A stretch of 24,393 nt of DNA, taken from a virus. Location of the stretch: positions 1-24,393 of IMG/VR virus record IMGVR_UViG_3300010157_000241. One strand, 5' to 3'. This document shows positions 67 to 14,899 of this stretch, in pieces. The first letter of the stretch is position 1. Each line of letters begins with the position of its first letter. Position numbers and translations under genes: made by a program. The notes under the pieces were generated by a model. The model was not told the DNA's origin. It saw only the letters and a list, made by a program, of their open reading frames with translations, and did no database searches.

Positions 67-888
67 ATGAGCGAAAATCCCCTTAAGCAGTATTTTAGAA
101 GACCTGCCATTTATTTAAAATTACCCAGTAATGGTCAAGGTTATCCGCCGGGAGTAATAGACATGCCTGAATCAGGTGATCTACCAATTTATCCAATGAC
201 TGCTATTGACGAGATTACTGCCAGAACACCAGATGCTCTGTTTAACGGCACAGCAGTTGTTGAAATCATTAAAAGTTGTATTCCTAATATCAAAGATCCG
301 TGGACTATGTTTAGTACAGATTTAGATGCTGCCTTAATAGCTGTCAAAGCTGCATCTAACGGAAATGATTTAGAGATGGAAAGCGAATGCCCTGAGTGTA
401 AAGAAACAGGCAAATACGGCATTAACCTAGCTGGCATGTTAACTAAGTTAACTTCGGGTGATTATACTGTCGAACTAAATGTAAACGATTTATACTTTAA
501 GTTTAGACCTTTATATTATAAAGAGATGAACGACATCAATCTTAGACAGTTTGAAGTTCAAAAAAATATGGTTGTAACCGAAAATGATTCAGATGAAGTA
601 AAAGCAAAGAAAAATCAAGAGACTCTTAGACTTTTTACCGATATAACAATAGATGTAATATCAAAAACGATAGAATACATAAAGACCCCGGTTGGTATTG
701 TTAGAGATACGGCGCATATTGCAGACTTCTTAAGAAACTGCGACAGACTTACTTTTAATAAGTTAAGAGATTACTCTATTGAACTTAAGGATAAAACAGA
801 AATGCCCCCGTTAGACATTTCATGTGTAAATTGCAGTCACCCATATAGCACAAAATTCACATTAAACGTCACTGATTTTTTCGGCTAA
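67..888 (+). CDS. 26: gp26-like baseplate hub assembly protein
   Basis: This 273-residue protein resembles the T4 gp26 baseplate hub family, whose members help assemble the central hub of the baseplate. T4 gp26 is about 208 residues, so this one is longer. An N-terminal segment (residues 10-65) begins RRPAIYLKLPSNGQGYPPG, typical of this family in T4-like phages. Two CxxC pairs, C108/C111 (CPEC) and C253/C256 (CVNC), could bind one zinc ion. The ATG at 67 has a Shine-Dalgarno sequence AAGGA at 55-59, seven bases upstream. The last codons GAT TTT TTC run into a slippery heptamer just before the stop, and the next gene lies in the -1 frame, so a 348-residue fusion may also be made. Family assignment is by sequence pattern; the frameshift is inference. 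Confidence 0.8.
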   Translation: MSENPLKQYFRRPAIYLKLPSNGQGYPPGVIDMPESGDLPIYPMTAIDEITARTPDALFNGTAVVEIIKSCIPNIKDPWTMFSTDLDAALIAVKAASNGNDLEMESECPECKETGKYGINLAGMLTKLTSGDYTVELNVNDLYFKFRPLYYKEMNDINLRQFEVQKNMVVTENDSDEVKAKKNQETLRLFTDITIDVISKTIEYIKTPVGIVRDTAHIADFLRNCDRLTFNKLRDYSIELKDKTEMPPLDISCVNCSHPYSTKFTLNVTDFFG

Positions 889-925
889 AGCTTCTTAATA
901 TGGAGCCTTCTGCCATTAAGAAGCT
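876..925 (+). promoter_or_regulatory. Candidate programmed -1 ribosomal frameshift signal
   Basis: Directly visible: a heptamer T TTT TTC at 876-882 in the correct X XXY YYZ phase for the upstream frame; a 6-base spacer 883-888 that contains the zero-frame TAA stop; and a perfect 11-bp stem, AGCTTCTTAAT (889-899) with ATTAAGAAGCT (915-925), closing a 15-base loop. After slippage the -1 frame reads R-L-K-L-L-N and enters the next gene at its ATG (900) without a stop. The parts and spacing are those of known -1 frameshift sites, including the lambda G/GT tail-chaperone type. The stem could instead hide or expose the downstream start codon, which is the first base of the loop. Confidence 0.65.
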
Positions 926-2266: not shown

Positions 2267-4033
2267 TTATGACATTTCCCTAGACGAACTGTACGTAGTG
2301 AATCCGCCCTCTTTAACTACTTTCAATATGTTATCAACACGACTAGATAGTTCCTCTCTATGCGAAACTAACCAAATAGATTTATTGCGGCGTCGAGTCA
2401 TATCTTTAAGAATGGACATTGCATTTTCAACGCCAATTGTGTCTAATCCGGAATCGATTAATTCGTCAATGAATATAGTATTGATTGGCGAATATAAATT
2501 TTCCCACACATCTCTAAAAGCAAACGAAAGAGAAAGTATGAGCCTATTCATTTCTCCGCGGCTAAGGTTATAGAAATCAAGTTCCCTACCTAATTCTGTA
2601 ATCTCGACATTTAGATCATTTTGAAACACTACTTGATGCGGCAACCCAATACGATCTAGATAATGAGTCAATCTAGCGTTAAGATATGACAAATTCTGAT
2701 CTATGATCTTTTTACGAACGAAACTATCTTTGTTGGTTAATAGATTTAAAATTAGAGTTTGATGTTCTAATATCTTAGTCAACTGATTAATCGTATCAAA
2801 ACTGACTACCTGCAATGCTTGATTTTCCATTTCGACGATTTGTTCTGCATATGGATCAGTCTCATTGCCTTTATTTTCAATTTGATTTAAAATATTGGTA
2901 ATCTGACTAGAATGCTTAACAGCTTCAGCTTCAGTATCATAATGAGTTTTTGGTGATCGGCCCAATTTACTTAATGCATTTAGTGCAGCAGTGTGTTGAA
3001 CAACTTGTGAATTAAAAGCTAATTCTTGCAATACGGATTCCTGCAGTGCTTTTTCTTTATCGGTTAGAACAGTTAGGTGCTTGTCATCATGAAACTCTTG
3101 ACCACAAGCATAGCATGTATGATTTTTTAAATCTTCAATTTCTTTTTTTAGTTTCGCTATTATCTTATGTTCTTTGGTCTCGTCTGCTTCAGCGCGGGTA
3201 ATAAGTTTTTTTAAGTCATCAATTTGTTTGCGTTTTTCATTGTATACGGTTAAATCTTTGTGTGCTTGCAACTCAAGGTCAATATCAATCTTTGTCAAAT
3301 CATCATACGCTAGCGCCAACTTAGCCAAATCTTCATCGTGTTTAGTTTGCCAAAGCTTTTGTCTACGTTTAGTAGAATCTATTTGTTCTTTAACACGCTT
3401 ATTAGCTTCTTCAATAGCCTTAATATTAAATTCTTCTTGTTGTATAGAATCTTTAGATTCTTTTACTTTTTCTTTAAGCACATCAGCTTTTTCTGAAAGC
3501 AAAGTAATGCCAAGTAACTGCTCGATAACATTTCGCTGGTCATTAGCTTTCATAGCTAAGAATGGTTCACTATAGGTATTAAGAGCAACAGTATGCTTAA
3601 ACATATCCGGCGTCATACCAATAGCTTTTTCTATATGTTCTTGCGTTTCTTTATTTTCACCCTGAGCATCGTCAGTTATTTCTTGCAAATTACTATTAAC
3701 ATAGAACTTTAGAGTGTTTGGTCTACGACCACGCTCAATCTTATATTCAATCCCATTAGCACTGAAATCTAAGGTAACCATCATACCTTTACCGTTAGTA
3801 CGATTGATTAGATTATCTTTTCTAATACTATTAATTGGTGTGCCAAATAACGCATAACTCAACCCTTGAATAAGAGTTGTTTTACCAGTACCATTTCTAG
3901 CACCGTCACCACCTAAGTCTAGATTTTCACCTAAAATTAATGTAAGTTCATGGCTGTCAAAGTTTACTGCTTGTGTAACTTGTCCGATAGACAAGAAATT
4001 ACGTAAAGTTATATTTCTAAGTACGATACTCAT
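2267..4033 (-). CDS. 46: gp46 recombination endonuclease subunit (Rad50/SbcC-type ATPase)
   Basis: A 588-residue SMC-like ATPase, close to T4 gp46 in length (about 560). Walker A is ARNGTGKTT at 45-53. Long coiled-coil arms run from about 175 to 430 and are interrupted by a zinc hook CYAC (C307, C310). The ABC signature is LSRGEMNRLILSLS, Walker B is IFIDEL (D523, E524), and the switch histidine lies in WLVSHREE. With gp47 it forms the nuclease complex that resects DNA ends for recombination-dependent replication and host DNA breakdown. Its ATG overlaps the gp47 stop by four bases (ATGA), so the two subunits are translationally coupled and probably made in balanced amounts. All catalytic motifs are intact. 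Confidence 0.95.
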   Translation of the reverse strand: MSIVLRNITLRNFLSIGQVTQAVNFDSHELTLILGENLDLGGDGARNGTGKTTLIQGLSYALFGTPINSIRKDNLINRTNGKGMMVTLDFSANGIEYKIERGRRPNTLKFYVNSNLQEITDDAQGENKETQEHIEKAIGMTPDMFKHTVALNTYSEPFLAMKANDQRNVIEQLLGITLLSEKADVLKEKVKESKDSIQQEEFNIKAIEEANKRVKEQIDSTKRRQKLWQTKHDEDLAKLALAYDDLTKIDIDLELQAHKDLTVYNEKRKQIDDLKKLITRAEADETKEHKIIAKLKKEIEDLKNHTCYACGQEFHDDKHLTVLTDKEKALQESVLQELAFNSQVVQHTAALNALSKLGRSPKTHYDTEAEAVKHSSQITNILNQIENKGNETDPYAEQIVEMENQALQVVSFDTINQLTKILEHQTLILNLLTNKDSFVRKKIIDQNLSYLNARLTHYLDRIGLPHQVVFQNDLNVEITELGRELDFYNLSRGEMNRLILSLSFAFRDVWENLYSPINTIFIDELIDSGLDTIGVENAMSILKDMTRRRNKSIWLVSHREELSSRVDNILKVVKEGGFTTYSSSREMS

Positions 4034-12481: not shown

Positions 12482-14899
12482 ATGTCAAGAAATAATAGAT
12501 CAATCCACTCATATCTACTATCCGCAACGCTAACACCCGAAGCAATATGTTCTCAACCGGCTACTATGCCAACCAGCAATTCTATCAATGGAACCGCAAC
12601 TGCTGCGCTATTGGCAACCATGCAGCAAACAACCGCATCGAATATTGATACAGCCGCTGCTGCATCCACTGGTTTTGCGATAGTTAATGGTGACTGTTGC
12701 TCGCCAACCATTAGTCCAAATAGCGTACCGCAAGTTGTTATAGGGCAGTATGGCATGAATCCCAAACAACTAGAAACTGCTGGGTTAATAAAACCCGGAT
12801 CTTCGACTATGGTAAATTCGGTTATTGCAGGTGGCACATGCGATCCTGCAACAGCCATGCCTCCAAATATTTGGACTGGTAAAAATGGAATAAACAGTTT
12901 AGATGATTATATAAACAGTACTCCTGCTCAAGCAAGTGCAGCAGTTGCAATGTTGCAGCAATCTCAAACACAATTGACTAAAGCCGGGGTTATTACTGGA
13001 CAGGAAGATTCTTCACAAATATCAGGTTTGATATTATCCGGAGCAACAATAGGAGTAGCGCAAACAATTAATACTATAAATTCTGTTAATAGCCTAAACA
13101 CAAACGCTACTACTATCATTAGCCCGTCATCAAGCTCAACTGGAGGCGCAATTGGTGCAATTAATAGTGCCAACGGTCCGGCTAACTGCGATACTGCTGG
13201 ATTAACTAACGTTACTAATACCTTGCAAGGCGTATTAAATGGAGCTGCTAAAGTAGCTGTAGGTACAGCCCTAATATCAGGCGCTACTAGCAGCATAATG
13301 TCTGCTATTAATAAAGGAAATTTTGCAGCTAGTTTATCATCAATATCTGCGGGATCGATTGCTGGCTTAAGTTTATCGCTCAGCGCATTAGCTAAGATAC
13401 CAAGTTTATCTAGTCTAACATCTGCAACTAGAGGAGCATCTGCCGCTGCGTTTTATGCTATAGCATCTAGCTTTAAGCCAATGACAGCGGGTATTCCTCA
13501 AAACTTAACAATGTTAGCTAGGGAGGCAGCGGCAGTTACTGCCACTGCCGCTAGCATAGGTGCTTCGCTAAACAGTGTGGCAGGCTGCACCCCTTTGCTA
13601 GCTTTGCCAAGCACCGGGTTGACTGGACTAGCAGCCATAGCTGGAGCCGCATCAAACGTATTAGGTGCTGCGTCGGGCGTATTAGGTGCTGCGTCGGGCG
13701 TATTAGGCGCGGCGTCAGGTGCAATATCAGGCGCATTGGGGGCGGTTAGCGGAGCAGTTGCCGGAGCAGCGGCAGGTGTACTTAATGCTGTTGACAACGC
13801 AATTGGCACCGCGCTAGGAGCAGCCAACACATCTCTTATCGGGTCACTTGGCTGTGAAGCCGCTCCTGTCTCGGCTGCGTTAGGAAGCGTTGCCGGATCG
13901 CTTACAAACTCAGTAAACCGAGCAGCAGTGACAACCGTCAACAACGGATTACGCAGCGTAGCCGGCCCAATTTTATCAGTTACTGGGTCCATAAGCGCGG
14001 CGAGTGGTTCGTTAAGTGCAATTAGCGGCTCACTAAGCAGCATAAGCGGTTCTCTAGGGGGAATTGAGGCACAATCGTCGTTGTCAACATTAGGAGCTTC
14101 TAGTTCATCTATTGGTTTTGCAAGTTCGGAAACCGCAGTAGGGGGATTTGCAAGCACAGGCTCATTGCTCAATAGTAGCGCATCCGGACTGCAACAAGCA
14201 GCAATCTCAGTAAGTTCTGGATCATTGCAGGCTTCAGTATCGGCAACGGCTAGCGGAATTGATAACTTACCCGGCGGATCAGGGGCTATCTCTTCTATTA
14301 TAAGCAATTCTCCTATTTCCCCAACAACAATTGCCGGATTGGGAGCTATCTCGGCATTAGCGGGCCCTTGCTCTACTATTGGCGCCGCCGCAGGAGCAGC
14401 AGCTTTGGCTGCAAGTGCTATTGATGCGGTTTCAGGGGACTTACTAGCACTAGCATCTGCGGGATTATCTGCAAGTGCATCTGCGAAATTACAAACAGCC
14501 ATAGCGTCGATTGGATCCGGCGGCCCTTCACCAATAAAAATGCCTACTGTAGCAGTGAATACCGTAGACCGCGCTACAGTTACTGCTACCGTTAACTCAT
14601 TATTAGGAGATCCGAATATACCTGCACCCAATTATTTAGGTGAGGTTTCGGCTTCGGCTGTTACTGCATTAGAGCAAGTACAACAACAAGCAGATGCAGC
14701 AGTAGAATCAGTAGTTCAAATAGATGCTTATGATGCTCAACTACAGGCCGCTTATGAGGCATATGATCAAGCAACTCAAAGTTACCCTCAAGGAGATCCT
14801 CGCATTCAACAAACATACCAAACTTACCAATCTTTATCAACTTCGCCGCAATTAACACAATTATATAGCCAAGCTGATATTAATACCTATCAGGTTTAA
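12482..14899 (+). CDS. Large Ala/Ser/Gly-rich baseplate-operon protein of unknown function
   Basis: An 805-residue protein lying between spike and gp25. It has the best ribosome site in the operon, AGGAGG at 12470-12475, six bases before the ATG. Residues about 90-170 (QYGMNPKQLETAGLIKPGSS, NIWTGKNGINSLDDYI) look like a small globular helical unit seen in other phage tail proteins; I cannot name it. Residues about 230-660 are dominated by Ala, Ser, Gly and Leu/Ile/Val in seven-residue steps (VLGAASG three times in succession, later SGSLSAI-type steps), which could form amphipathic or membrane-inserting helices. The last 100 residues (from LGEVSASAVTALEQVQQQ) are helical, Gln/Ala/Tyr-rich and coiled-coil-like. 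Single Cys residues recur through the chain. Possible roles include a spike tip, envelope-penetrating or peptidoglycan-contacting protein; none is demonstrated. Confidence 0.7.
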   Translation: MSRNNRSIHSYLLSATLTPEAICSQPATMPTSNSINGTATAALLATMQQTTASNIDTAAAASTGFAIVNGDCCSPTISPNSVPQVVIGQYGMNPKQLETAGLIKPGSSTMVNSVIAGGTCDPATAMPPNIWTGKNGINSLDDYINSTPAQASAAVAMLQQSQTQLTKAGVITGQEDSSQISGLILSGATIGVAQTINTINSVNSLNTNATTIISPSSSSTGGAIGAINSANGPANCDTAGLTNVTNTLQGVLNGAAKVAVGTALISGATSSIMSAINKGNFAASLSSISAGSIAGLSLSLSALAKIPSLSSLTSATRGASAAAFYAIASSFKPMTAGIPQNLTMLAREAAAVTATAASIGASLNSVAGCTPLLALPSTGLTGLAAIAGAASNVLGAASGVLGAASGVLGAASGAISGALGAVSGAVAGAAAGVLNAVDNAIGTALGAANTSLIGSLGCEAAPVSAALGSVAGSLTNSVNRAAVTTVNNGLRSVAGPILSVTGSISAASGSLSAISGSLSSISGSLGGIEAQSSLSTLGASSSSIGFASSETAVGGFASTGSLLNSSASGLQQAAISVSSGSLQASVSATASGIDNLPGGSGAISSIISNSPISPTTIAGLGAISALAGPCSTIGAAAGAAALAASAIDAVSGDLLALASAGLSASASAKLQTAIASIGSGGPSPIKMPTVAVNTVDRATVTATVNSLLGDPNIPAPNYLGEVSASAVTALEQVQQQADAAVESVVQIDAYDAQLQAAYEAYDQATQSYPQGDPRIQQTYQTYQSLSTSPQLTQLYSQADINTYQV
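13658..13720 (+). repeat. Three tandem 21-bp units within the Ala/Gly-rich gene
   Basis: Units at 13658-13678, 13679-13699 and 13700-13720 each encode V-L-G-A-A-S-G. The first two are identical; the third differs at a few third-codon positions. Degenerate copies continue downstream (AISGALGAVSGAVAG), which suggests that the hydrophobic part of the protein grew by slippage of a seven-codon unit. Confidence 0.85.

Follow-up and report, generated by a model that had tools for sequence, protein, structure and literature searches.

A putative programmed -1 frameshift cassette in gp26-type genes of T4-like phages

Programmed -1 frameshifting of lambda-type tail chaperones is classic. The lambda G/GT pair yields a short and a long product and the tape measure gene lies downstream. 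In chaperones of this kind an RNA structure past the shift site is frequent though not universal, and a tape measure gene nearby is usual without being a defining feature. Phage T4 has been named the exception to this rule for tail chaperones (2016 review, PMC5009743). The T4 chaperones, gp26 and gp51, were identified by Vladimirov, Gautam and Davidson (2022), and as that work is cited in PMC10274946 and PMC12846349, the chaperone genes of T4-like phages use a mechanism other than frameshifting. The latter paper, from 2025, also cites it for poly-T shift signals in T4-like TAC-N genes. In T4 the two genes are separate and divergent, with no frameshift. For cyanophages, Sullivan et al. (2010; PMC3037559) described a gp51 in which the first ~200 residues are missing. 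The TAC locus of phage Adele (Vandenendeviridae/Andersonviridae, PMC12846349) displays a conserved poly-T -1 site and an open -1 extension, however the motif is GTTTTT and the family is a different one; its likeness to the locus described here is in the poly-T site and the open -1 frame. In phage 0305phi8-36 (PMC2147016), duplicated short and long genes, gp143/gp144, stand in place of a frameshift as they appear to do in T4, although the lineage is unrelated.

The window analyzed here is the whole of a 24,393 nt viral DNA fragment (IMG/VR record IMGVR_UViG_3300010157_000241, positions 1 to 24,393). PHROGs matches in this 24-kb fragment include recombination subunits 46/47, a late sigma factor and baseplate genes; its source is a T4-like contractile-tailed phage. 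An 805 amino acid protein rich in Ala, Ser and Gly is encoded at positions 12482–14899. It displays internal repeats (GVLGAASGVLGAASG...) and has only a weak match to a hub/lysozyme family.

ORF A, at positions 67–888 of the plus strand, encodes a predicted 273 amino acid gp26-like protein, the short product (TAC-N) of the unshifted frame. Its last codons are GAT TTT TTC GGC TAA (874–888). The slippery heptamer T TTT TTC is at positions 876–882, and its phase fits the X XXY YYZ pattern for tandem -1 slippage. A 6 nt spacer follows (883–888), which ends in the TAA stop codon of ORF A (886–888), so that 13 nt separate the start of the heptamer from the end of the stop. A putative stimulatory hairpin begins immediately thereafter, 6 nt past the heptamer, at positions 889–925. 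Its arms, AGCTTCTTAAT (889–899) and ATTAAGAAGCT (915–925), are perfect reverse complements and form an 11 bp stem with a 15 nt loop (900–914).

The -1 frame extension (TAC-C) is at positions 882–1112 and consists of 76 codons, counted from the Arg codon read after the slip, plus a stop codon at 1110–1112. It is open throughout and begins with RLKLLN-MEPSAIKK.... The predicted fusion product has 348 residues with the junction peptide ...NVTDFFRLKLLNMEPSAIK. Within the extension, an ATG at position 900 gives a callable open reading frame of 70 residues (900–1112), with no Shine-Dalgarno-like sequence upstream; ORF A is preceded by AAGGA. A sequence-only reading of this DNA had described these elements, namely a heptamer in the correct phase with the stop close behind it, a perfect 11 bp stem six bases downstream and an open second frame at -1 without a Shine-Dalgarno sequence of its own, and direct reading of the nucleotides bears out each of them. 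An intrinsic-terminator-like hairpin with a T-run at positions 1141–1166, also on the plus strand, closes the two-frame transcript. Between this terminator and a convergent resolvase-like gene there are about 480 nt (1167–1644) without a convincing gene.

The ORF A sequence matches the T4_baseplate family PF12322 (E-value = 6e-14, 52.7 bits compared with a gathering cut-off of 24.5) and the baseplate hub family phrog_150 (E-value = 1e-14). A BFVD search with its predicted structure (pLDDT 90) finds T4-like baseplate hub assembly proteins (E-value = 8e-24); a search against solved structures gave no match above noise. The extension is predicted to have an all-helical fold (pLDDT 91) and has a weak match to phrog_18291. 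A Pfam search with the extension gave no match, and in BFVD there are only weak hits, among them the “tape measure chaperone” of phage Moogle at an E-value of 1.2, which is not significant. Neither ORF A nor the extension displays detectable sequence similarity to lambda gpG/gpT in Pfam or PHROGs.

Both gp26 and gp51 of T4 are PF12322 proteins. The C-terminal end of T4 gp51 carries about 45 extra residues, VFKLLVNPDEI..., which resemble the frameshift junction FF-R..LL..(E)PEEI.... The family phrog_634 matches T4 gp51 at residues 147–246 (E-value = 1e-23) and also matches the cyanophage and rhizobial -1 peptides (E-values of 9e-30 to 5e-8), thus the C-terminal extension of T4 gp51 and the cyanophage frameshift products have a family in common. 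With the jumbo-type fusion as profile, the alignment to the cyanophage/rhizobial fusion spans both from end to end, through the FF junction (E-value = 5e-18), however this profile gives no reliable direct match to single T4 gp26 or gp51 sequences. The extension in the window is therefore tied to the end of T4 gp51 indirectly, by this fusion-to-fusion alignment and the weak phrog_18291 match. Judged by these similarities, T4 gp51 appears to be a gp26-type paralogue of full length that carries the extension as an in-frame fusion. It would correspond to the long, fused product, and gp26 to the short one.

IMG/VR was scanned twice, which yielded 84 loci, some of which share contigs. Both parts are encoded in 82 of them, in every case with the second part at -1 relative to the first, and an in-phase TTTTTTC is present in nearly all of the 82; one locus (L025) has AAATTTT. 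When named phages are included, a T-run slip site is present in 72 nonredundant loci; the heptamer is TTTTTTC in 71 of these and TTTTTTG in one (phiM9), and it is always in phase. It is retained down to about 31% protein identity. The base that precedes TTTTTC is always T, although it fills the third position of codons that specify six residues (D, N, T, S, H or R). Phe codons elsewhere in these genes are mixed (436 TTT to 232 TTC). The sequence-only reading had proposed a comparison of the junction in relatives and had allowed that the two genes might there prove to be in unrelated phases without a heptamer; the phase and the heptamer are instead conserved.

The motif and the -1 phase are found in seven of seven jumbo-phage records (RaK2, PA5oct, Atu_ph07, Phosso, BF, CBB and Munch). 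The motif is also present in OLIVR6, Aeromonas phage 65.2, the cyanophages S-RIM8 and P-RSM6, Marzo, the Vibrio phages D480 and R11Z, ACP17 and Citrobacter phage Ci1. The TTTTTTG variant is found in phiM9 and RHph_I46, and phiM7 has a run of seven T. The “gp26 + short gp51” pairs of cyanophages and rhizobial phages show the identical gene order, the -1 phase and TTTTTTC or TTTTTTG at the junction, but are annotated as two genes. The downstream partner is of the kind that carries the gp51 annotation in distant T4-like phages, cyanophages included, as the sequence-only reading had supposed. The canonical heptamer is absent from the Ackermannviridae-like phages Det7, VAP7, K448 and Cygsa01, where the -1 phase is kept. 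The junctions of Det7 (L104), Vibrio phage K448 (L106), VAP7 (L107) and Cygsa01 (L098) display the sequences ATTTTC, CTTTTC and GTTTTTC, often with TAATG. Either a non-canonical shift or reinitiation may operate at the Ackermannviridae-like junctions.

Taken alone, the hairpin in the window has a modest folding energy (-15.5 kcal/mol, z = -1.8). As this is only moderately unusual, the case rests on comparison. Across the 72 loci the sequence downstream of the heptamer folds more stably than its shuffled versions (mean z = -1.83), and the stem usually begins at +6 or +7. Analysis codon by codon places the clearest excess of synonymous identity in the outer arms of the stem, AGG CTT and AAG AAG; the remaining codons of the extension show on average no excess. 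When 52 sequences are aligned without gaps, pairing is seen in 69% of cells, compared with 41%–56% for slid partners, and changes on both sides of the stem number 50 against 28.5 ± 5.2 in shuffled data (0/500). RNAalifold found no single hairpin common to the family; the probable reason is that the inner pairs are not the same in every lineage. In a few relatives no hairpin is convincing. Rfam gave no credible match, and a loop-downstream pseudoknot examined over 32 loci shows no signal (median p = 0.38). The stem is supported but variable: the constrained arms and paired changes uphold it in relatives, and no single consensus form covers the family.

The open reading frames of the window contain 51 in-phase heptamers. 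Only that at positions 876–882 combines a nearby stop codon, a -1 open reading frame of 76 codons and a hairpin score of 25. The next-best hairpin score among these heptamers is 16, and random windows reach 25 at a frequency of about 0.1%. A chance heptamer is rejected both by this uniqueness (1 of 51) and by the conservation across relatives. The cassette is far beyond chance, and conservation is decisive.

The most probable reading is that a programmed -1 ribosomal frameshift makes the short (TAC-N) and long (TAC-NC) tail-assembly chaperones, to which the sequence comparisons lead us to assign a probability of about 0.92. The 70-residue open reading frame could instead be a separate gene whose translation, coupled or reinitiated after the upstream stop, starts at ATG 900, the heptamer being incidental. 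Its ATG is situated 11 nt past the upstream stop codon, some annotators give the extension its own gene in relatives, and TAATG or TGATG overlaps are present in several distant phages. However an ATG at this position is found only in close relatives of the window, and no ATG, GTG or TTG is present in the first 18 codons of the extension in 37 of 72 loci, nor in any of the 73 codons of the PA5oct extension. A second gene with a start of its own is thereby excluded in PA5oct and improbable in the other loci. In addition conservation of the -1 peptide begins at residue 1, with R1 and L4 invariant in 39 sequences, and the conserved R-x-x-L-L is encoded ahead of ATG 900. The ATG also abuts the hairpin, with no ribosome-binding sequence of its own, and a separate gene leaves the invariant in-phase T6C unexplained. 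Since start codons are absent in relatives, the independent small gene is rejected, with only a slight chance left to it; the 70-residue neighbour gene of the sequence-only reading, whose ATG is not conserved as a start, is most likely a part of the extension.

Slippage of RNA polymerase on the T6 run would also give an in-frame fusion. The site is a homopolymer run, and the seven T of phiM7 are in keeping with such slippage, but six T is short for transcriptional slippage, and both the length of the run and the C after it hardly vary. The constrained arms and a hairpin at ribosome spacing are features needed by ribosomal slippage only. The polymerase is very unlikely to be the source of the fusion. 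The existence of a single fused gp51 in Straboviridae such as T4, JSE and KP15 could suggest that a once fused gp51-like gene was broken in the window by sequencing error or a recent frameshift mutation. This is refuted by recurrence, as over 80 contigs and also finished phage genomes have the identical phase and heptamer, and its probability is negligible.

In the proposed programmed frameshift, ribosomes on the gp26-like gene would meet U UUU UUC and would be slowed by the hairpin 6 nt downstream. In a minority of them both tRNAs (Phe-Phe) would pair again one base further back; these ribosomes would pass the UAA, two codons on, without stopping and read 76 further codons. A single mRNA would thereby yield much TAC-N (273 aa) and little TAC-NC (348 aa). 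Like lambda gpG/gpGT, both forms may act together as chaperones while the tail tube or hub is assembled on the tape measure protein. We infer the slippage itself, its rate and the chaperone role from the sequence. As in lambda the shift would be to the -1 frame, however the window has T TTT TTC and not the lambda site.

A large divergent open reading frame of 615 to more than 1300 aa begins 21–130 nt upstream of ORF A in nearly all IMG/VR loci with enough flanking sequence. The window itself starts 66 nt upstream of ORF A, and this neighbour is seen in the relatives alone. Its length varies by lineage; examples are at positions 1–3096 of L029 and 1–3900 of L005, both on the minus strand. In the L029 protein the composition is Gly/Ala-rich and resembles that of tape measure proteins, and an M15 peptidase domain is present at the C-terminal end. 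The neighbour in RaK2 is annotated as similar to tape measure protein, and in S-RIM8 and OLIVR6 a large gene with weak matches to tape measure families is located downstream. On the basis of size, composition and these weak matches, the large divergent open reading frame is probably the tape measure protein gene, transcribed away from the chaperone gene, unlike lambda where it is downstream. A tape-measure-like neighbour together with the gp26/gp51 homology fits a tail assembly chaperone with short and long forms of the gpG/gpGT kind.

Genes 26 and 51 are on opposite strands in T4 and in JSE, thus T4 itself cannot frameshift between them. The proposal of a G/GT-like cassette in a gp26-type gene therefore holds for the window and its relatives but does not carry over to T4. 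In KP15 the two genes are in tandem and gp51 is already fused. Positions 2501–3795 of the Klebsiella phage KP15 sequence (L110) show gp51 and gp26 on one strand, with an overlap of a few bases, just before gene 25. This tandem is possibly a picture of the original duplication before the T4 rearrangement. In a maximum-likelihood tree, midpoint-rooted and with long branches, gp26 and gp51 of T4, JSE and KP15, six sequences in all, cluster in a single group (98/96), which is placed with frameshifting Straboviridae (65.2, Ci1 and the Vibrio phages); this deeper placement is weak (77/83). As gp26 and gp51 of T4 group together among frameshifting relatives, the T4 arrangement looks like a derived duplication. 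It is fairly likely that the frameshift is ancestral across T4-like phages, here meaning the jumbo RaK2/PA5oct types, cyanophages, rhizobial phages and the Vibrio and Aeromonas Straboviridae, and that T4 and its close kin hard-wired both forms by gene duplication. After the duplication one copy would have stayed short (gp26), and the other would have fused the shifted extension in frame (gp51). An ancestral frameshift followed by duplication in T4 would account for the T4 exception to G-T frameshifting, and also for the cyanophage gp51 that appears to lack its N-terminal residues.

The sequence-only reading had suggested that the frameshift in a gp26/gp51-type pair, and with it the link of these proteins to long-tail chaperones, might be new. 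Since the chaperone role (Vladimirov et al. 2022, as cited in later papers) and poly-T signals in T4-like TAC-N genes (as cited in PMC12846349) are already published, the suggestion of novelty falls. What is added here is the breadth of conservation and the constraint on the hairpin; the kind of system is already known.

The conserved site would mean that the relatives of T4 obey the frameshift rule for tail chaperones. The long frameshift product would have its T4 counterpart in gp51, an essential hub protein whose function has long been unclear. For many “gp26 + short gp51” pairs, and for unannotated gaps, the annotation would be corrected. The T4-like phages may also offer a natural experiment in which frameshifting has been replaced by gene duplication.
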